A stretch of 26,989 bases of DNA, from the IMG/VR virus record IMGVR_UViG_3300008113_000544, positions 1 to 26,989 of that record; one strand, 5' to 3'. The stretch's first letter is position 1, and each line of letters begins with the position of its first letter. The notes under the pieces were generated by a model. That model made no database searches. It saw nothing but the letters and a program-made list of their open reading frames with translations, and was not told the DNA's origin. This document shows positions 14,469 to 26,902 of this stretch, one piece after another. The position numbers and the translations under genes were made by a program. Origin of the DNA: a virus.

Positions 14469-17400
14469 TAATCCACAGACTCCAGTTTATCTTGTTCTAA
14501 GAACCTGTTATACCAAGATGAAAATTGAGTATCTTGTTTTTTAAGTTCACTAGTATATTGTTCCCATGCCTCTAATAAGGCTTTATTAGAAGTAGCAGTA
14601 ATGCTTTTGCTTCCACCAAAACTTTCACGATTCTTCAACTCAGCAATTAAATCATCACGTGAAGCCATATAATCACGCATCAAAGCCCAAGCAGTTGAAT
14701 CGTTTTCTCTTATAAATTTTTCATCTGAAATAATCGCATCAATTGCTTTAATGTTATTTTTCCAGGCACCCATTTCGTACACATCAAAATCGTTAGCCCA
14801 ATTTTTATTATTGGCTCTCAGTTCAGCAATGAAACCTTTTTTAATCTCGGCATATGGTTGACCAGCATTACTTGACAAAGAAGTAATACCTGCTTTTTCA
14901 AGTTCAGCATCAAAACCATCCATGAACTTATTAAATTCAATCCAACCAGAAACCACATCTTGACGTTTAATAGCATCAACAGGTGAAAGTTTTTTACGAT
15001 ACTTATCGTTACTTCCAGGGATAATATCTGTTGTTAATTGCCAAACATATGATGCTTTGTCAAAATCACGTTCAACACCATCATTGCTAATGAGTTGAAC
15101 AAGTTCAGGACTATAACCTGCAACATCACTTACAAGTTCACTGTTTTTCTTTAAACGGCGAACAGATTCTGGGCTTGCATCAGAACCAGCAATATTCTTA
15201 GTACCAGAAAGTGCTAGAACAAAGTACTCTGGGTATCTTTCGTAGAAACGTTCTTGTGCACTTTTGCCCTGAGCATCAGTACCAGTCTGTTGTTCTTTAC
15301 GCCATTCCTGAATATAAAATTCGTACTCTGAACGATATTGTGGAATAACTGGAAGAGTAGCGTTAGTTAAGAAACGAAGAAGATAAAACGCACTAGTCCT
15401 TTTATTTATTTCTTCAAAAGTAGGTTCAGTTTCACGTTTACCATCTCTGTAACGTTGCATTTCAACAGCGTACAAATCAGTTAAACTATTTGCGTATTCT
15501 TTAGAAGCAGGACCTCTAGTACCAGCAATTACACGTTTAAGAGTTGCTGGGAATACTAAATCCCAAGACCCTGGTTCAGTTGAAGGACCATTCTGTAAAA
15601 CTAAATCAAATAATTCTTTAGCAGGAACTGGAACACCAAATTTTTCAGATGCAGCATAATTAATATCTGGATTGTTCTTTAATACTTGTGAAACAGCAAC
15701 TTGAAGTATTGGACCTGCACCTGGGTTCCACCAAGGGTCGCCAGCAAGCACAAGGTTAAAGCCACGTTTAGGGAAACGCATAACAGCATCTTTACCTACA
15801 ACTTCTTCAAACCATTTAGGTAATATTCTTGATGCTTGAAAAGTAATATAACTATCACCAGTAATAGGGTCTGTTTCTTGGAACCCTGCTTTTTCAGGAG
15901 CATTCCAAATCTGTAAAGCACGACCAACTATTTGAGGATTTTCAAAACCAATTCTTCCCCAAGTTCTAACAGTATTTAATTGTGCTTGGATAAATGGGGA
16001 AAAGAATGCAAATACTGAAGCAAAGTTTGAGTATCTTTGAATTGTGTATAAAGTATTATTAGTTTCTTTCATGGCAACACGATGTGCATTCGCCACAAAC
16101 ATATCTGCAACTTTATTGAAATCGTCTTGTGTTTTAATAGCACCACGAGCAATTGCTTGGTCTACCTGTTGTGATACTGCACGATTATACACAGCATTGT
16201 AGAAAGGGTGACGAACTAAAGTATCTTCAGGTAAAGCACCAATGTATTTAAATATCTTATTAACAGTTTGCTTATAAGAAGTCATGAATCTTTTTTGAGA
16301 TTCTGCCGCTAATAAACCACCATTGATTGGGATTAAATCAGTTCTATTTTCTAAAACTTTTCTAATCTCTGCAGTTGAAACAGTCTTTTCAGATAGTTTA
16401 CGTCTAAGTTGAGCATCTGGAAATGCTTGCTTCATATATAAAGCAAGTTTAACTAAATGAACTCTTACCTCTTCAGCATCTTTCCAGTTAACACCAGAGT
16501 CAATTAAATCTTTACGAAGTTTTTCAATATTAACATTCTTGTCAATAAATTTAATATTGTTATCAAGTCTGCCTCTATTTGCTGCTCTAACAATAGAAGC
16601 AACTATACTTTCTGGGTTAACAGAACGCATAAGTAAACGTGCTGCTTCATCATTCTTGTACACTCTTGCAGAATCAGCAACAGCAGAAAAATAGTTTTCA
16701 TTCCAATTGCCATTGATGTCTTTAGGTGCAATACGGGAAACACCCATATTAACATAATTTTTACGAGAGAACTCTTCACCAATAGCCATTGGGTTAGATA
16801 GTTCTAAAGATGTTTTACGTTGTGCACTTGAAGCATCCATAGCGTATTCACCAATGTTGCCTTCGAAAGCACCTTGGAATTTAATACCATTATGAACAAC
16901 TGCTTTTTGACCTAAACGATAACGGTTACCTTTGATACCTTTACGTTCAGCAGATTTAACATAGTTATCAATGTTCTGTTCTGCTTTAGCAATTGATGAT
17001 TCAATTAATTGTAAACGATTATCTATTTCTTTAATTTTATCGTTATATCTTTGTTTAGCAGCCTTTTGAGTTACTTTGTTTAAACTTTTAACGGTTTCTT
17101 TACGTGCAGCCAAAGCAACTCTTTTATCTGCTTGGAATAAACGTATTTCACCTTTTTGAACATCAATCATTTCTTGCCAGGTACCAATTACTCTTGGAAC
17201 ACCAGGTCCAGCCTTGGATACAACTAAACCTTTATCAGCGTTAATCATATCTAATTTATTTTTAACAGAGGCTAATCTGTTTCTAGTGAAGTTAGAAATA
17301 CCTTCAACTGGTCTGGCATAGTTCATGAAACCATTCATGTAAGCCATAGCACGAAGACTACCTTCACCAACGTTACGTTGTGGGTAACCTAAACGCATAA

Positions 17401-19646: not shown

Positions 19647-21236
19647 TTATCCTTGTATTTGAGTTAAGATTGACGCTAAATCAATTGGTTGTTGTTGTTG
19701 TTCCTGGGGAGCCCCTGAAGGTGCTGCTGGAGCCGAGGGGACGGGTTGCTCAACAGGAGCAGGTGAGGTTCCTCCAGGGGCAAATTGTGGGGCTGGGGCA
19801 GGTGCAGGAGCGGGAGCAGGGGCAAATATTTTACTTACTGCTTCCTCTATTGCTGTACCTTTTTGTCTTTCTTTTATAACCTCAGCCATTTTCATTGCTA
19901 AATCTGAAGCATCCTGACCTTGTGCAGTCATTTGTGGAATTGCTTGTGCTAGTTGTGACATTGCAGCGTTCAAATTGTCACGCATACGTTGAACATCAAT
20001 CTGTTGTTGTTCACCTGTAACGTTCATTGACCAAGGCAGTTCACGCATTACAAAATCTCTAGATACTAAATCAGCACCTAATGCTTGTAGTGAGAATATT
20101 AAAGCACGTGATGGGTCAAGTCCTGCCATTAGACCGTAACGTACTTGAATGTTGTTATCCCCGTTGATATCTTTTCCAGGGATGTAAGTCAATTCATAAG
20201 GGGAACCATTTCGTTCACCATAGATTGATTTTTCAAAATTGAATAATGTTTCATCAATTCTGAATGCAAGACTTAATACATCTTCAAAGGTGTCAGCAAG
20301 TATTTGTTGACCTGTTTTAACTTGTGTATCGAAAGCACCTAATAATGCTTGAACACCTTGACCTGTAACTATGGAAGCATCTAGAACACCTGAACGTCCT
20401 TCAGGATATCTGGAACCTAGACGCATTTCGCGTTGTAATATTTCGGATTGTGTGAATACTCCTGGTGGTAAATCCATACCAACTTTACGAATATTCTGTG
20501 GTTGTGAAGTTCTTAGAACAGCATCTGGACCGAAAGCGAATTCTTGTACATCGTTAGGTACAGCAAGTGGTGCGTTAACAGATTTTTCTGCAGCATCCAT
20601 TGCAAGGTAAGCAAAACGTGCACGTGCTATTTGTACCCATAGAACATCATCGAACTGTCCACGTGGTTCATCATCAATACCTGGTTTAATTGCTACACGT
20701 ACCATCAGTTCACCCATTGGGTTTTCTGTTTGGCGTAGAACAAAGTTACCTTTAGTTGGTAAGAATAAAACTACTTGGTCAGCGTCTTCGTATCGAATCA
20801 TTTCGATTGGTGCATTGTAATCAACTGTTGCAGAGTTAGTTCCTGCAAGAATTGCACCTTGGTACTCTGGGAACTCGGCAATGAGTTCACCAACGCTTTT
20901 CATGTAACGCTTAGAGAAAGAAATAAGTCTTTTAAATCTGTCAAACTCTGGGTATGAACCCATTGGGTTTTCAATACGTATGAAAGGTAAACCAGATTCT
21001 TCGTTAGGTTCAACAATGAATGGTAGGAAACCATAAGTGCCGTACCAGTCTGCACCTGTGTACATTTGGGTTTGTAGACGTGATGTTTGAATGTAGTTAT
21101 TTGCTATAAGTGTTCTGGTGTCAGCGTTCTTTTTAGCCCTATCACCATTGTTGCGTGAAATGCAGTTGAATGATGGAAGAGGTGCTAGTACTTCGGCAAC
21201 GTCACGTGCAGCAACATCAACAAAGTTGGCAACCAT
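19647..21236 (-). CDS. Portal protein
   Basis: 529 residues. It forms the dodecameric ring at the head vertex through which DNA is packed and released. It starts MVANFVDVAARDVAEVLAPL, followed by PSFNC and further portal-like blocks (TGADWYGTYGFLPFIVEPNE, RIENPMGSYPEFDRFKRLI). The C-terminal 60 residues are low-complexity (APAPAPAPAPQFAPG, QEQQQQP). Terminase upstream and actinophage gene order support the call. The N-terminus looks short: related portals have tens of residues before VANFVDVAARD, the called ATG has no Shine-Dalgarno sequence, and an ATG at 21268 with the plausible start MLTVEQIAIKQ is out of frame. Confidence 0.85.
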   Translation of the reverse strand: MVANFVDVAARDVAEVLAPLPSFNCISRNNGDRAKKNADTRTLIANNYIQTSRLQTQMYTGADWYGTYGFLPFIVEPNEESGLPFIRIENPMGSYPEFDRFKRLISFSKRYMKSVGELIAEFPEYQGAILAGTNSATVDYNAPIEMIRYEDADQVVLFLPTKGNFVLRQTENPMGELMVRVAIKPGIDDEPRGQFDDVLWVQIARARFAYLAMDAAEKSVNAPLAVPNDVQEFAFGPDAVLRTSQPQNIRKVGMDLPPGVFTQSEILQREMRLGSRYPEGRSGVLDASIVTGQGVQALLGAFDTQVKTGQQILADTFEDVLSLAFRIDETLFNFEKSIYGERNGSPYELTYIPGKDINGDNNIQVRYGLMAGLDPSRALIFSLQALGADLVSRDFVMRELPWSMNVTGEQQQIDVQRMRDNLNAAMSQLAQAIPQMTAQGQDASDLAMKMAEVIKERQKGTAIEEAVSKIFAPAPAPAPAPAPQFAPGGTSPAPVEQPVPSAPAAPSGAPQEQQQQPIDLASILTQIQG

Positions 21237-21946: not shown

Positions 21947-23848
21947 TTACATGTAGAATTGTTGTTGTTGTTGATTAGCGTATTCTTCATCCAAGTCAAC
22001 AACCATTTGGGTATTAACTTGACCTCTAGTTGCCCACCTAGAAGTGGTAAATCTTGGGGCAAAGTTATTTCTTTCAAGCCATTCACGTGCAACAAGTTGG
22101 GTGAACCAAAGAGCCATAACCATGTCTTGTGGTTGTTTCTTCTGCATATCTGGTTTCCAGATAATCAGTTGGTTAACTAAGGCTTTCATACCTTCAGAGT
22201 TCTCAGTTGAAGGTAGATGAATCAGGTTTGAGTTCTTTTCGAACTTTCCTTCTCGTACATTCCCAAAGAGTGGAGCCATAGACGCAACACCGAATCCAAC
22301 GTCCCATTTGTTATTTCCAGTGTAATGCTCACGAAACTGGATTCCTCTTGAAGATAAAAAGTCTCGTATCGCCTCATCTTTGGTGAGGAAGAGTTGGAAA
22401 GCATTTTTTTCTACCACCACTACGTTAGGTTGATATTTGTGAGTCCAGTTCTCAATCAGTTCCCTAATTTTACCTGGAGTGGGTTCAGTCATGTTCATTG
22501 CATCAAGAATGTATTGGTTACTTGAGCCCATATCAACAGCCACACATACAGCAGCAGTGGCACCAGACATTGCAGGGTCAATACCAATAATGATTCTGAA
22601 ATTACCTTCTTCAGGATGTCCAGGTGCGTCAGGGTTTAGAACCCCAACTTTACGCATACCTTGAATTGAACCTGTTACAGCAAGTGGTGGGAATATGGAA
22701 TCATCTTCAACATCTTGTTGTTGATAAACCATTGCCCAAGTTTGGGGGGTGACTTCTGAACGCCTATTGAACAGCGTAGGACCATCCCACTTGGGAAACA
22801 ATCCATCAGAATCGGGTGTGGTGTCTTCATCGCCATCCCAGGGTCTATCAGACTTAGCCCAGAGAGTCACCCAGTTTTTGGGGTTATCGGAAAACTCCAA
22901 CACTGCTGGCATAGCCAAATATGTGAAAGGAGATTTACCACCAGACCAATGTTCTGGATTTCGAAGTTCACGGTACAAGTCATTAGTGCCGATACGTGTA
23001 CCAACAATTAGAAGTTTACCGTTCTTACCCAAACGGGTAATAACTTCCTGCTGCAACCATTTGATTTGCTTTTCCCACTCGTGGGCGTTGGCACCAGTAA
23101 TGCAGTCGTCCAAAATAATTAAATCAGCACGAGCACCATAAATTTGACCACCCATACCCAAAGCCTGAAGGGTAGGGTCTTTCTCAGATGAGTCCCTAGT
23201 TTCAGAACCTAAATAGACGGTGTCTGTTTTCCAGGTGTCTGCGTCATCTTTCCATCCACCTTCTGGTCCATAAGTCTTTTGTAATTTAGACCACCGAGGA
23301 TGGGATAATCTTTGCTTAATAGCGTAAACGAATTCGCGTGCTTTGTATAAAGTCTTTGAGACAATGATGATGCGAACGTTGGGGTCAAGTGCAATTCTAT
23401 AAGTCGAATAGTTAACCGTGATAGTTGTAGACTTAGCATGTTCAGGTGGGATATTAATGAGCACACGATTACGAGTCGCAGGTTCATAAACCATTGCGTC
23501 ATGCAACCACTCAGGTTCACCCTTTTCAAGAAGGGAGATAAAGTTCTGCTGATGCGGAAAAACTGCCATCTCAAGGTAATCCCTAGAGAACTCCTCAAAA
23601 GGAATCTTAAACTTGCCCGCATCCGTTGTCCCAGCCCTAACATCATCCCTTTTAATCTTAGCATCGTCCAACGCCAAGCGGAAGTCATCATCAGACTTAA
23701 CCCAATACTTAACAGTAACAGGTTTAATGCCAGCCATCTCACAGGCGGCGACAACAGTCATACCATTAGAAATACCCGTTAAAAAATTTTTTTTCTTCTT
23801 AGCCGACTCACCCTTCAAGTGGTGAGATATACCAGACTTTGCAGCCAC
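21947..23848 (-). CDS. terL: Terminase large subunit
   Basis: 633 residues: the ATP-driven motor and nuclease that packs DNA into the head. The N-terminal 15-70 form a helix-turn-helix-like region (ISNGMTVVAACEMAGIKPVT). The ATPase has a degenerate Walker A at 134-141 (PPEHAKST), Walker B LIILDD at 243-248 and a GTRIG coupling motif at 283-287. The RNase H-like nuclease has GIDPAMSG with D424, VVVE with E480 and D575 in QPQDMVMALW. The start is GTG at 23848, with GAAGGGG six bases upstream. No separate small terminase is visible in the window. It is the first gene of the leftward late operon. Confidence 0.95.
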   Translation of the reverse strand: MAAKSGISHHLKGESAKKKKNFLTGISNGMTVVAACEMAGIKPVTVKYWVKSDDDFRLALDDAKIKRDDVRAGTTDAGKFKIPFEEFSRDYLEMAVFPHQQNFISLLEKGEPEWLHDAMVYEPATRNRVLINIPPEHAKSTTITVNYSTYRIALDPNVRIIIVSKTLYKAREFVYAIKQRLSHPRWSKLQKTYGPEGGWKDDADTWKTDTVYLGSETRDSSEKDPTLQALGMGGQIYGARADLIILDDCITGANAHEWEKQIKWLQQEVITRLGKNGKLLIVGTRIGTNDLYRELRNPEHWSGGKSPFTYLAMPAVLEFSDNPKNWVTLWAKSDRPWDGDEDTTPDSDGLFPKWDGPTLFNRRSEVTPQTWAMVYQQQDVEDDSIFPPLAVTGSIQGMRKVGVLNPDAPGHPEEGNFRIIIGIDPAMSGATAAVCVAVDMGSSNQYILDAMNMTEPTPGKIRELIENWTHKYQPNVVVVEKNAFQLFLTKDEAIRDFLSSRGIQFREHYTGNNKWDVGFGVASMAPLFGNVREGKFEKNSNLIHLPSTENSEGMKALVNQLIIWKPDMQKKQPQDMVMALWFTQLVAREWLERNNFAPRFTTSRWATRGQVNTQMVVDLDEEYANQQQQQFYM

Positions 23849-24247: not shown

Positions 24248-24265
24248 AGATCGGAAGAGCACACG
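24248..24265 (+). other. 18-nt exact match to Illumina TruSeq adapter
   Basis: AGATCGGAAGAGCACACG is identical to the first 18 bases of the standard TruSeq read-1 adapter; the match ends there and the sequence continues with AACGATTG. The chance of such a match in 27 kb is negligible. It lies in non-coding DNA directly left of the DnaA boxes, so it is probably untrimmed adapter in the assembly and may mark a false join. Confidence 0.85.
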
Positions 24266-24318: not shown

Positions 24319-24459
24319 TTATCCACATGATATGCACAGGGTGTGGATAAGTTGTGGATAAGTGGGGCTGGTTGTTCACATGTTATCCACAGGCAACACT
24401 CCGATAGTTAAATAGTTATCCACAGGACTTATGCACAGGTGTGGATAACCTGTGGATAA
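24319..24459. promoter_or_regulatory. Cluster of eight DnaA boxes (origin-like)
   Basis: TTATCCACA at 24319, 24383 and 24416 and TTATGCACA at 24429 lie on the plus strand; TGTGGATAA at 24342, 24353, 24440 and 24451 are the same box on the minus strand. Two near matches (24330, 24372) fill gaps. All eight agree with TTATNCACA. Boxes face each other in groups, and some are 11 bp apart, near one helical turn. This density is typical of an origin bound by host DnaA, or a DnaA-titrating site. Confidence 0.85.
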
Positions 24460-24465
24460 CTTTCG

Positions 24466-24569
24466 CCACAAACTTTACCGAAACAAACCTATTTTTTCAC
24501 CACAAACTCGATGTCCGAATTGTCCTGATATGTCCGATTTTTTCGCCACAAACTTTTCGGACACAAACT
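24466..24569 (+). repeat. Iteron-like CCACAAACT repeats, left cluster
   Basis: CCACAAACT occurs at 24466, 24500 and 24546, with a one-mismatch copy ACACAAACT at 24561; a weaker AAACAAACC lies near 24482. Two copies share the longer form TTTCGCCACAAACTTT. All point the same way, directly after the DnaA boxes. Same-direction short repeats beside DnaA boxes and an HTH gene resemble iterons of plasmid origins. A second cluster lies behind that gene. Confidence 0.75.
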
Positions 24570-24584
24570 CGGACATTTCGGACA
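24512..24584. repeat. TGTCCGA heptamers in inverted arrangement
   Basis: TGTCCGA at 24512 and 24531 is followed by its complement TCGGACA at 24557, 24569 and 24578, with a degraded TGTCCTGA at 24521. The two arms face each other around about 24547, interleaved with the CCACAAACT repeats. This could be a partition site or an operator for the adjacent HTH protein. Confidence 0.65.
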
Positions 24585-24680: not shown

Positions 24681-24696
24681 GTACCCGAACGGGTAC
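24681..24696. repeat. GTACCC-N4-GGGTAC palindrome, copy 1
   Basis: GTACCC GAAC GGGTAC, extended by a further ACCCGA so that a third half-site (GTACCC at 24693) overlaps. It lies 25 bp before the ATG of the ParB-like gene. AATACT at 24660 could be a -10 at a distance like that seen for copy 2. In RNA it would form a 6-bp stem with a tetraloop ahead of the ribosome binding site. Confidence 0.75.
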
Positions 24697-24721
24697 CCGA
24701 AGAGAGAAGAGAGAAAAGAAA

Positions 24722-25402
24722 ATGAATAAAGCAGAAGAAAAGAAAATGAAAGCAGTTCAAGCAATTGAAGATGTAAAAGTATTAATGGCAAGGCAAGAAG
24801 AGGTGAAGAGCCTTTTCATATCTGCTGAGGTCGCAGAAAATAAAGTGAGCGAACTCTTAAAAGATATAAAGAAATCAGCGACCTATGCTGATGCTTGCCA
24901 ATCTTTCAGAGTTGCAAGTGTGTCAGCACTTTCAGCGATTGAGGATAAAGTATTTAAGACTCAGCAAGAATTAGCCGATTTCTTAGAAATCGACAAAAAC
25001 AAAATGAGTCGCATTATCAAATCTGGTCGAGTGTTTAAAGTTCACACCTCGGACGATTTGGCTAGTCGTGGACTTGACGAGTTGCAAGTGAAAGCGTTGA
25101 CCCATGATGACCCTAAATTAATCACTGAATTGATTTCAGGTGAAAAGTCTGTCGAAGAGGTCAAGGCAGAAAAGGAAGAAAAGAAAAACGATAGTTCCAA
25201 AAAATTAGGAAAGGCAGTCGATAAAGTTATCGAATTACTAGGTGACTCTTCAATTGCTGAAATGGACAGATGGAACGCGTTCAAGCAAATCAGGGCACAA
25301 GTAATTAATGTAATGCCGAAGAAAATTGCCGAACAAGAAAAGCAATTGCTCGACCAATGGCAAGCATTGCAAGCAGGAAAGAAATCCAAGGTTAACGCCT
25401 AG
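24722..25402 (+). CDS. ParB/KorB-like HTH protein next to the origin-like repeats
   Basis: 226 residues. A charged, coiled-coil-like N-terminus (1-50) leads to a helix-turn-helix at about 80-104: KTQQELADFLEIDKNKMSRI. The following 105-150 (DDLASRGLDELQVKALTHDD, LITELISGEKSVEEVKAE) follow the pattern of the ParB/KorB central DNA-binding domain, in which the HTH is followed by a helical bundle. A Lys/Glu linker (150-160) precedes a helical C-terminus. The N-terminal ParB CTPase domain (GxxRR motif) is absent, and no ParA lies nearby. A GA-rich stretch (GAAAAGAAA) precedes the ATG. It likely binds the flanking repeats and acts in partition, replication control or repression; a Rep-like initiator is possible. 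Confidence 0.7.
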   Translation: MNKAEEKKMKAVQAIEDVKVLMARQEEVKSLFISAEVAENKVSELLKDIKKSATYADACQSFRVASVSALSAIEDKVFKTQQELADFLEIDKNKMSRIIKSGRVFKVHTSDDLASRGLDELQVKALTHDDPKLITELISGEKSVEEVKAEKEEKKNDSSKKLGKAVDKVIELLGDSSIAEMDRWNAFKQIRAQVINVMPKKIAEQEKQLLDQWQALQAGKKSKVNA

Positions 25403-25416
25403 GACTTCAGAAGTAG

Positions 25417-25445
25417 CCCCCGAGAAATCGGGGGTTATTTTTTTT
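25417..25445 (+). terminator. Strong intrinsic terminator after the ParB-like gene
   Basis: CCCCCGA (25417-25423), GAAA tetraloop, TCGGGGG (25428-25434), then TTATTTTTTTT. A classic Rho-independent terminator, 14 bp after the stop codon. It separates this gene from the downstream operon with its own promoter. Confidence 0.95.
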
Positions 25446-25460
25446 GCCAAAAATTTTTCG

Positions 25461-25500
25461 CAACAAACTCTCGCCACAAACTTGTGGCTCGCAACAAACT
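25461..25500 (+). repeat. Iteron-like repeats, right cluster
   Basis: CAACAAACT at 25461, CCACAAACT at 25474 and CAACAAACT at 25492, all in the same orientation as the left cluster and each preceded by CG. They are spaced 13 and 18 bp. CCACAAACTTGTGG at 25474 also forms an inverted repeat (CCACAA/TTGTGG). Having the same repeats on both sides of the ParB-like gene suggests one binding protein for both. Confidence 0.7.
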
Positions 25501-25554
25501 TTTTCTGACGACCCCGTACGCCAATTTTTGACTGCCCCGTTAGTGCAAATGTGC

Positions 25555-25583
25555 TTGACATCACACTGCAAATCTGGTATACT
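25555..25583 (+). promoter_or_regulatory. Sigma-70-type promoter of the rightward early operon
   Basis: TTGACA (25555-25560), a 17-bp spacer and TATACT (25578-25583): perfect -35 and five of six -10 bases. The clearest promoter in the window. It drives the small plus-strand genes from 25634 on. Confidence 0.9.
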
Positions 25584-25596
25584 TGATATATCAAGT
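25581..25596. promoter_or_regulatory. 16-bp perfect palindrome over the early promoter (operator)
   Basis: ACTTGATATATCAAGT is its own reverse complement. It starts inside the -10 box and covers the expected transcription start at about 25590. A protein bound here would block the promoter, so it reads as a repressor operator. The repressor is not identified; the ParB-like protein and genes outside the window are candidates. Confidence 0.65.
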
Positions 25597-25603
25597 TGAG
25601 AGT

Positions 25604-25619
25604 GTACCCGTAGGGGTAC
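25604..25619. repeat. GTACCC-N4-GGGTAC palindrome, copy 2
   Basis: GTACCC GTAG GGGTAC, in the expected 5' leader of the early transcript, a few bases before the AGAGGAGGAG ribosome binding site and 15 nt before the ATG at 25634. Confidence 0.75.
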
Positions 25620-25633
25620 AAGAGGAGGAGAGT

Positions 25634-25723
25634 ATGACAACAATTCATTTAGGCGATTGCCAGAATGGGTGCGAACAATGTAAGGCTAATTGCAACTGTG
25701 AGGTGTGCTGTGAAGAAGTATAA
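25634..25723 (+). CDS. 29-residue cysteine-rich peptide
   Basis: First gene of the early operon, with a very strong ribosome binding site (AGGAGGAG) 3-10 nt before the ATG. Sequence begins MTTIHLGDCQNGCEQCKANC and ends NCEVCCEEV. Seven cysteines among 29 residues (9, 13, 16, 20, 22, 25, 26) plus H5 could bind one or two zinc or other metal ions. It is a likely micro-zinc protein acting on host machinery; function unknown. The next gene overlaps its end by 14 bp. Confidence 0.75.
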   Translation: MTTIHLGDCQNGCEQCKANCNCEVCCEEV

Positions 25724-25901
25724 ACACGGCATACCTACTCGAAGGGTGATTAAGACCCGTTCGCTGGTGATGGTTGGTAATCGTACCCGTAAGGGTACTA
25801 GAACCTCTTTCACTAATCTTCAAGTCTCACGCGACTTAAAAGCGTGTGAGGCTTACTGGTTGAAAGTGTTACAAGTTACTGAGGAGGGAGGACGACAATG
25901 A
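25710..25901 (+). CDS. Small basic protein of unknown function (63 residues)
   Basis: The chosen start is GTG at 25710, because GAGG lies 6 nt upstream and longer starts would run through the Cys-rich gene. It starts MKKYKHGIPTRRVIKTRSLV and has LKACEAYWLKVLQ near the end. The GTACCC palindrome copy 3 lies within the frame, coding for R-T-R-K-G-T. It ends in GGAGGGAGGA, which is the ribosome binding site of the next gene, with an ATGA overlap. I do not recognise it. Confidence 0.6.
   Translation: MKKYKHGIPTRRVIKTRSLVMVGNRTRKGTRTSFTNLQVSRDLKACEAYWLKVLQVTEEGGRQ
25783..25798. repeat. GTACCC-N4-GGGTAC palindrome, copy 3 (inside a gene)
   Basis: GTACCC GTAA GGGTAC. The only copy inside a reading frame, and 100 bp before the next start. 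In RNA its loop would be the stable GNRA tetraloop GUAA. Confidence 0.7.
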
Positions 25902-26017
25902 GTAGCATTAAATGTATTGATTGTGATAATCAAATTGAATATACAACGCAAGCACTTATTCGGTGTGATGATTGTTTATTTAATTACATTGTGACAGTAG
26001 GTGCAAATGAAAAGTAA
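25898..26017 (+). CDS. 39-residue zinc-ribbon-like peptide
   Basis: Starts MSSIKCIDCDNQIEYTTQAL and ends IVTVGANEK. Two CxxC pairs (C6/C9 and C23/C26) at zinc-ribbon spacing. The ribosome binding site GGAGGGAGGA is excellent and the ATG overlaps the upstream stop as ATGA. Small zinc ribbons in phages often touch transcription or translation machinery, but no target can be read here. Confidence 0.8.
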   Translation: MSSIKCIDCDNQIEYTTQALIRCDDCLFNYIVTVGANEK

Positions 26018-26132
26018 AGCACCTATCATTTTAACTAGGCGTGGCGAGAAGTTGATGATATTCAGTATCTTTGCAATATCATTGACCATTGTTGCGTTTG
26101 CTGATAGTATTAGAGGTATGTTAGGTATGTAG
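26007..26132 (+). CDS. 41-residue single-pass membrane protein
   Basis: Starts MKSKAPIILTRRGEKLMIFS; one transmembrane helix, about 16-33 (LMIFSIFAISLTIVAFAD), follows a basic ILTRRGEK segment, so the N-terminus is probably cytoplasmic. The LTRRGE-helix pattern is one I know from small actinophage proteins. It overlaps the upstream gene by 11 bp. Function unknown. Confidence 0.7.
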   Translation: MKSKAPIILTRRGEKLMIFSIFAISLTIVAFADSIRGMLGM

Positions 26133-26160
26133 ATTTCAACTGCTGAGGGGTAGTTGATTA

Positions 26161-26176
26161 GTACCCGACAGGGTAC
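26161..26176. repeat. GTACCC-N4-GGGTAC palindrome, copy 4
   Basis: GTACCC GACA GGGTAC, seven bases before GGAG and 16 nt before the chosen start of the next gene. No promoter is visible upstream, so this copy lies inside the operon transcript. Confidence 0.75.
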
Positions 26177-26192
26177 AGAAATGGAGATGAAA

Positions 26193-26597
26193 GTGACAAA
26201 GTTAAATAAGAAAACAATATTAAATGACTTTGACAATATGTTAGAGAAGTTTGATATTCAACTGAAAGAGAATGGTGATTTCATTCGTGAAAGAGATGTG
26301 TATCTTTCTTTTTTAGTTAGGACATATAAGACCAGTAAGCAGAGAATGCATATTGCAGATACTTTGGCTGGTCATATGGTTAAAACAGATAGTGAAAACT
26401 ATGACCACTGGTCGTTGGCTATGGATGTGATTAGTTCTATGACTTTTCTGGCTGGTGACTTGGATAACACCGAGTTCTTGCTAGATGATATAGAGCCACA
26501 CCCTACTAACAATCTGCGAGCACTAATCAGTAAGTCAGTTCAGGCATGCCGTAATGGTTTGCAACCTAAGGAATTCGAGGGGGCGTTCAATGTCTAG
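26193..26597 (+). CDS. Helical protein of unknown function, distantly DUF4192-like
   Basis: 134 residues from GTG at 26193, chosen because GGAG lies 6 nt upstream; in-frame ATGs at 26181 and 26187 lie on or before that site. Mostly helical: NDFDNMLEKFDIQLKENG, then LVRTYKTSKQRMHIADTL, and a C-terminal SSMTFLAGDLDNTEFLLDDI, with NNLRALISKSVQACRNG. The end pattern (small helix, G-D, acidic, then P..N.L) recalls C-termini of actinobacterial DUF4192-type phage proteins; this is weak. Overlaps the next gene by 8 bp. Confidence 0.65.
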   Translation: MTKLNKKTILNDFDNMLEKFDIQLKENGDFIRERDVYLSFLVRTYKTSKQRMHIADTLAGHMVKTDSENYDHWSLAMDVISSMTFLAGDLDNTEFLLDDIEPHPTNNLRALISKSVQACRNGLQPKEFEGAFNV

Positions 26598-26832
26598 ACC
26601 TATTTATGAGATAGCAAAAGAGATTGAAAATGATTGGTCCAAACAAGGTAAGGGCATAAGCATTTATGCTAAACCATATCTTGAAGCCATGAGTATGATT
26701 GACAACATTAAAGACATGTATATTTATGAGCGTGCCGATAGTGTTGTTCGCTATTTTCTGGCTAATGCCAGCACTTGGCGTGGAGATAAAGCAAGAGAGA
26801 TTAAGAAAGAATTAAACTCTTTGCTAAAATAA
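26590..26832 (+). CDS. Conserved small phage protein (FLANAxTWRG family)
   Basis: 80 residues from ATG at 26590, with GAGGGGG upstream; the ATG at 26554 lies deeper within the preceding gene. Starts MSRPIYEIAKEIENDWSKQG; then IYAKPYLEAMSMIDNIKDMY and VVRYFLANASTWRGDKAREI, ending KKELNSLLK. I recognise this protein from a great many actinophage genomes (RPIYEIAxEIxxDW...AxPYLxAM...FLxNAxTWRGxxAxxIKxEL). Its function is unknown to me. It supports actinophage identity for the right side too. Confidence 0.85.
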   Translation: MSRPIYEIAKEIENDWSKQGKGISIYAKPYLEAMSMIDNIKDMYIYERADSVVRYFLANASTWRGDKAREIKKELNSLLK

Positions 26833-26840
26833 AAAAACGT

Positions 26841-26856
26841 GTACCCGAACGGGTAC
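26841..26856. repeat. GTACCC-N4-GGGTAC palindrome, copy 5
   Basis: GTACCC GAAC GGGTAC, identical to copy 1, 8 bp after the preceding stop codon and 64 bp before the next ATG. Confidence 0.75.
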
Positions 26857-26862
26857 CGACCA

Positions 26863-26902
26863 GATAGCCCAAGTTGTTTCTCTCTTTCTCGCTTGGGCTA
26901 TC
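26863..26902 (+). other. 11-bp hairpin upstream of the last gene
   Basis: GATAGCCCAAG (26863-26873) pairs perfectly with CTTGGGCTATC (26892-26902), with an 18-nt pyrimidine-rich loop. No T-tract follows; GAGGAGG and the ATG come next. It fits an RNA-stability or processing element rather than a terminator. Confidence 0.65.

Follow-up and report, generated by a model that had tools for sequence, protein, structure and literature searches.

Scattered palindromes in the early region of an aquatic actinophage-like virus are probably operators of a ParB-type regulator

What recognises a palindrome that is repeated across the early genes of a virus is the question raised by a stretch of 26,989 nucleotides of viral DNA (IMG/VR record IMGVR_UViG_3300008113_000544, positions 1 to 26,989; hereafter the window), in which exact copies of GTACCC-N4-GGGTAC begin at positions 24681, 25604, 25783, 26161 and 26841. 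A sequence-only reading of this DNA had picked out the same five copies and proposed a dispersed regulatory element, giving equal odds to an operator and to a hairpin or translation element at the RNA level. The dispersed element stands, as does the operator option; the even weighting of operator and RNA element does not. With a probability that we put at about 0.72, the palindromes are DNA operators of P0001, the product of the gene that follows the first copy, which would be an autoregulated, multi-operator repressor of the early region working in the manner of the stoperators of cluster A mycobacteriophages. The computed basis for this comprises the sites themselves, their restriction to the early region, their fixed arms, a modelled helix-turn-helix (HTH) core in P0001 and the co-variation of regulator and operator. 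The features concerned are as follows (RBS, ribosome-binding site; ORF, open reading frame).

24681..24696: candidate operator site 1, GTACCCGAACGGGTAC, located in the regulator gene's 5' leader and suggesting autoregulation; GTACCC-type relatives keep a site before the regulator
24722..25402, + strand: regulator gene P0001, 226 amino acids, with a long N-terminal helix, a predicted ParB-type HTH core (residues about 52–155) and a helical C-terminus
25555..25583, + strand: promoter-like TTGACA-17-TATACT, 11/12 matches to consensus, directly upstream of site 2
25604..25619: candidate operator site 2, GTACCCGTAGGGGTAC, between the promoter and the RBS of the next small ORF
25635..25723, + strand: small ORF (MTTIHLGDCQNGCEQC...) that follows site 2
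25665..25901, + strand: ORF holding site 3 (RVIKTRS...RKGT kept in relatives)
25783..25798: candidate operator site 3, GTACCCGTAAGGGTAC, within coding sequence
26161..26176: candidate operator site 4, GTACCCGACAGGGTAC, directly 5' of an RBS
26841..26856: candidate operator site 5, GTACCCGAACGGGTAC, intergenic
26863..26902, + strand: separate RNA hairpin, GATAGCCCAAG...CTTGGGCTATC, showing compensatory base changes among relatives; an internal contrast, not part of the operator

The palindrome is far from random: a first-order Markov model predicts about 0.0004 exact copies in the window against the five observed. No further exact copies were found there, nor any other palindrome family with 6-bp arms (gap 0–12) present in three or more copies. 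The window is a fragment. Contig IMGVR_UViG_3300008453_000559 (39,081 bp; hereafter G001) has the same regulator gene and aligns with the window at 99–100% identity, and since both ends of G001 meet inside the window, we treat G001 as a complete, circularly closed genome. It carries three additional copies past the window's right edge, giving eight exact copies, all inside a 7 kb early region, and no other palindrome with 6-bp arms (gap 0–12) reaches four copies in it. No copy was found among its late genes, so that the absence of late copies reported from the window holds for the complete relative. Two near matches were set aside as lying in coding sequence, one at window position 23025 in the terminase gene (TTACCCAAACGGGTAA) and one at 14553 on the reverse complement of G001 (GTGCCCTTACGGGTGC).

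In the complete genome, sites 1, 2, 4 and 7 lie 15–25 nt upstream of a start codon, sites 5 and 8 occupy longer gaps and sites 3 and 6 fall inside conserved ORFs. The earlier statement that four of the window's copies immediately precede an RBS is thus right for 24681, 25604 and 26161 but not for 26841, which is 64 nt from the start codon with another hairpin in between; 25783 lies within an ORF conserved in relatives rather than ahead of an RBS. The copies had also been described as mostly lacking a nearby promoter, which fails for 25604: site 2 starts about 14 nt past the likely start point (about +14) of the near-consensus promoter at 25555–25583. The 4-nt centre begins with G throughout the window, as claimed, but in two of the eight G001 copies it begins with T and ends with C, and the asymmetry of the centre is therefore not tied to the direction of transcription.

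Residues 52–155 of P0001 were modelled with a pLDDT (predicted local distance difference test) of 91, and the structure matches of this core, over the whole domain, are dominated by the DNA-binding domains of ParB, Noc, Spo0J, SopB and VirB (Z 4–5.6). A model of the whole protein was helix-dominated and gave no useful fold match, matches coming from the domain-only model. Six members of the P0001 family gave no Pfam match to an N-terminal cytidine triphosphate (CTP)-binding/CTPase domain and have a long N-terminal helix there instead. Structure scores alone prove no homology; in combination with the genetic comparisons that follow, they render DNA binding by P0001 likely. Searches of phage records, of plasmids and of about 85,000 genomes of prokaryotes found no relative of P0001. 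A scan for GTACCCGNNCGGGTAC, blind to the protein, found, among the matches listed, many-copy contigs, of which those spanning the gene's place encode a P0001 relative; there may be further relatives beyond these. Many single GTACCCGNNCGGGTAC matches were read as chance, the contigs with many copies all being relatives of this phage.

Two natural experiments carry most of the independent weight for co-variation. In contig IMGVR_UViG_3300032309_001004 (L158), the detected early neighbour genes share 62–99% protein identity with those of G001 and the regulator only 36%. All nine L158 sites, at orthologous positions, have a spacer of five bases (none of four). The sequence flanking them has in many cases hardly changed, and in 58 bp around one of them that are 98% identical to the relative G003 the sole gap falls in the spacer. 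The in-gene site 6 changes from ACG GGT ACA AGA to ACG GGG TAC AGG: one base is gained in the operator and one lost directly after it, restoring the frame and turning G-T-R into G-Y-R, so that the DNA site has been adjusted at the cost of a residue. The half-sites and the core of the recognition helix (DKNKMSRI) are unchanged; the remaining protein and the spacing are not. In the second contig, IMGVR_UViG_3300032330_001199 (L232), terminase is 85% and the site-6 gene 84% identical, the regulator is a distant homologue (hhalign E 1.7e-5) and the recognition helix reads HHSVVQRY in place of DKNKMSRI. Neither GTACCC nor GGGTAC was found anywhere on this contig, which carries GKCGCC-N3-GGCGMC at five places, three of them at the positions of sites in the N4 relatives. 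With regulator and all sites changing together, these relatives look like a virus swapping both the lock and the key of a master switch.

A survey of 80 related loci, obtained by a terminase search, extends the pattern. The slot beside the terminase holds differing HTH proteins paired with differing early-region palindromes: SKTTISR-type proteins go with GTTTCTA-N1-TAGAAAC, SMSTISR-type proteins with sites in which the outer base differs (mostly CTTTCTA-N1-TAGAAAG) and NKDTINR-type proteins with GTCTAG-N5/6-CTAGAC. Late-side copies of the class palindromes numbered zero in each locus tested. Where the slot holds a metalloprotease-like gene, palindromes are fewer or of other kinds (TGTCTTAAGACA, CTTAAG), and in ct2KA10 (terminase 54%) neither motif nor regulator was found. 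The regulator classes largely coincide with clades of a terminase tree, in which L232 is placed within the N4 clade with modest support. In profile comparison the SKTTISR family matches the NKDTINR family (E 6e-8); comparison of either with the P0001 family is unconvincing (E 0.02–0.04), and common descent of all slot proteins is therefore not claimed.

Two observations on spacing stand beside these. The early regions of L243 and L245 each hold two spacings of one half-site, GTCTAG-N5 and GTCTAG-N6. A scan with the N5 pattern also matched nine isolate-derived contigs (L167, L168, L173, L182, L184, L186, L191, L199 and L200), genomes of roughly 50 kb and 63–64% guanine plus cytosine with two to three clustered GTACCC-N5-GGGTAC palindromes and without a P0001 relative; theirs is probably an unrelated operator.

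How might the system work? Direct binding of P0001 to the palindromes we strongly infer from the sequence comparisons. P0001 would probably bind as a dimer that sets one of its two HTHs on each GTACCC half-site, the half-sites lying about one helical turn apart. On site 1, in its own 5' leader, it would exert negative autoregulation; on site 2, just past a strong early promoter, it could block promoter escape; and on the remaining sites, whether they precede an RBS, separate two genes or fall within one, it may block the passage of elongating RNA polymerase. The most likely outcome of eight scattered operators per genome would be repression of the early region, in the manner of phage repressors with dispersed operators. 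That the protein is a dimer, that the sign is repression and that it might have any part in superinfection immunity are presumptions of this scheme.

The alternative that had been given equal standing, that each copy is an mRNA-leader hairpin (6-bp stem, 4-nt loop) controlling translation or stability, now seems very unlikely. Every copy does fold stably (-9 to -11.5 kcal/mol), three sit just before RBSs, some loops are GNRA-like and eight one-sided changes of the outer pair are compatible with G-U pairing; Rfam gave no matches at the gathering threshold. The test that had been proposed, whether the arms covary or stay fixed in relatives, was run on 56 sites from seven relatives, with no more than one mismatch allowed in the arms, and speaks for a DNA site bound by protein. 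Of the six arm pairs, five scarcely vary, the outer pair changes on one side only and is broken in five sites (four G-G, one C-C), and no compensated change was seen, in a scan whose one-mismatch limit would hide compensated double changes except at aligned orthologous sites. A single alignment containing site 5 and the neighbouring hairpin at 26863–26902 shows two compensated pairs in the hairpin and none in the arms of the site. (This hairpin lies between site 5 and the next RBS, and because no run of T follows, it is not a standard terminator.) The fixed arms, the two sites inside genes, the two centres reversed relative to transcription and the concerted spacer change in all nine L158 sites together favour double-stranded DNA sites.

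Amongst readings in which a protein binds the DNA, P0001 might be an early activator or antiterminator using the same sites with the opposite sign. Many early genes are preceded by sites and the sign of regulation is not readable from sequence, but a site at about +14 from its promoter, and others inside genes, are awkward for activation, and we consider this unlikely. Somewhat less likely again is that the sites are parS-like and serve partition or replication control, a ParB-type protein segregating a plasmid-like form or setting its copy number: the modelled core appears to be of the ParB type and seven exact DnaA-type boxes (TTATCCACA) in 141 bp adjoin the regulator gene, but no ParA-type ATPase (PF13614) was found in G000, G001, G003 or G004, no ParB CTPase domain was recognised in P0001, the sites do not cluster but extend across 7 kb of early genes, and the box cluster is missing in most of the wider clade. 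Recognition by a host protein or by another early phage protein would accord with the co-occurrence of further early genes with the motif, but no other detected gene of L158 has diverged nearly as far as the regulator, the recognition helix is changed in L232 and operator type tracks regulator type across the clade; of all the alternatives it appears the most improbable. Several observations do weigh against P0001 as the repressor: it has only weak matches by structure, with Z below 8 and a Foldseek E of about 0.4, it reaches the Pfam cut-off of no family, other early genes co-occur with the motif, L158 and L232 are each a single metagenomic contig, shared ancestry accounts for part of the link between regulator class and operator class, and no tyrosine or serine integrase was found in our search, so that a lysogenic repressor role is not secured.

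Comparable systems are known. The immunity repressors of cluster A mycobacteriophages (L5, Bxb1, TipsytheTRex) act at many dispersed operators or stoperators in short intergenic gaps and at promoters, and the cognate consensus differs between related cluster A phages (PMC6550527, PMC9283540). Here, likewise, one site is repeated (eight exact copies in G001), and one copy lies at a promoter-like sequence with the others intergenic or intragenic. To judge by sequence, the regulator and operator change jointly in L158, L232 and the wider clade. Cluster A sites, however, are 13-bp, asymmetric and orientation-dependent, number 20–30 per genome and are bound by a monomer with HTH and stoperator domains, whereas those described here are 16-bp palindromes with both centre orientations, number 8–12 per genome and go with a predicted ParB-type core. 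KorB of plasmid RK2 is a ParB-family transcriptional repressor with OB operators both near to and far from promoters (PMC11790492); unlike KorB, P0001 has no recognised CTPase domain and no ParA was found. The present system is best read as working like both cluster A stoperators and KorB whilst belonging, by the features tested, to neither. VirB of Shigella, among the P0001 structure matches, has a ParB-type DNA-binding domain turned to transcription control. VirB relieves silencing from a parS-like site, of which there is no evidence here.

The likeness to the start-associated sequences (SAS) and extended SAS (ESAS) of cluster K mycobacteriophages, suggested earlier, holds for position only: those short repeats are limited to the non-structural genome half, near start sites (PMC3203893). 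SAS is an asymmetric 13-mer (GGGATAGGAGCCC) and ESAS are imperfect 17-bp inverted repeats with 4–13 bp spacers; the present sites are unrelated in sequence and some lie inside genes. By description, the sites also resemble the operators of the phiC31 repressor as inverted repeats dispersed in an early region. The repressor of the Streptomyces phage phiC31 binds conserved inverted repeats dispersed in the early region of this actinophage. In the phiJoe paper, GGGTAC is present in primers only.

To the left of the region lie leftward structural genes (terminase 21947–23848, portal 19647–21236), and to the right, in order, the rightward 226 amino acid gene (24722–25402), small ORFs, an exonuclease, a DnaB-like helicase and a sigma-factor-like gene. 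The best named relatives of the terminase are from Streptomyces phages (44–46% identity) and therefore point to a host that is presumably actinobacterial. About 870 bp of non-coding DNA separates structural from early genes and holds the seven TTATCCACA boxes (24319–24459). G001 has exact boxes only in this regulator-side cluster, G002–G004 have fewer and most of the clade has none; the cluster is a possible replication origin. CGC[C/A]ACAAAC repeats, perhaps iterons, flank the regulator gene at 24464–24575 and 25459–25500 and are kept in N4 relatives. Small assembly artefacts are probably present in the window contig: positions 24248–24264 (AGATCGGAAGAGCACAC), which match exactly the first bases of a widely used sequencing adapter, are absent from the matching G001 locus, and two stretches of G001 are missing from the window, one of 91 bp (at about 19119) and one of 118 bp (at about 21241), the latter also present in L006.

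What these loci offer is a natural series of regulator–operator pairs, some of them from genomes that are almost the same. The series shows how specificity can change, and the phage survive the change, when a regulator has eight or more scattered sites, a question still open among those who study phage immunity. They also make available small, apparently orthogonal HTH–operator pairs. Tentatively, the clade may be one of aquatic actinophage-like viruses with fast-switching immunity and no recognisable integrase, persisting as extrachromosomal residents that are mutually immune or non-immune: a terminase-side slot would be occupied by one or another HTH repressor, with five or more specificities in all and a separate set of early palindromic operators for each, and specificity would switch when all operators change in concert, a one-base alteration of the spacer being among such changes. 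The findings suggest that aquatic phages without a recognisable integrase may still run repressor-based control.
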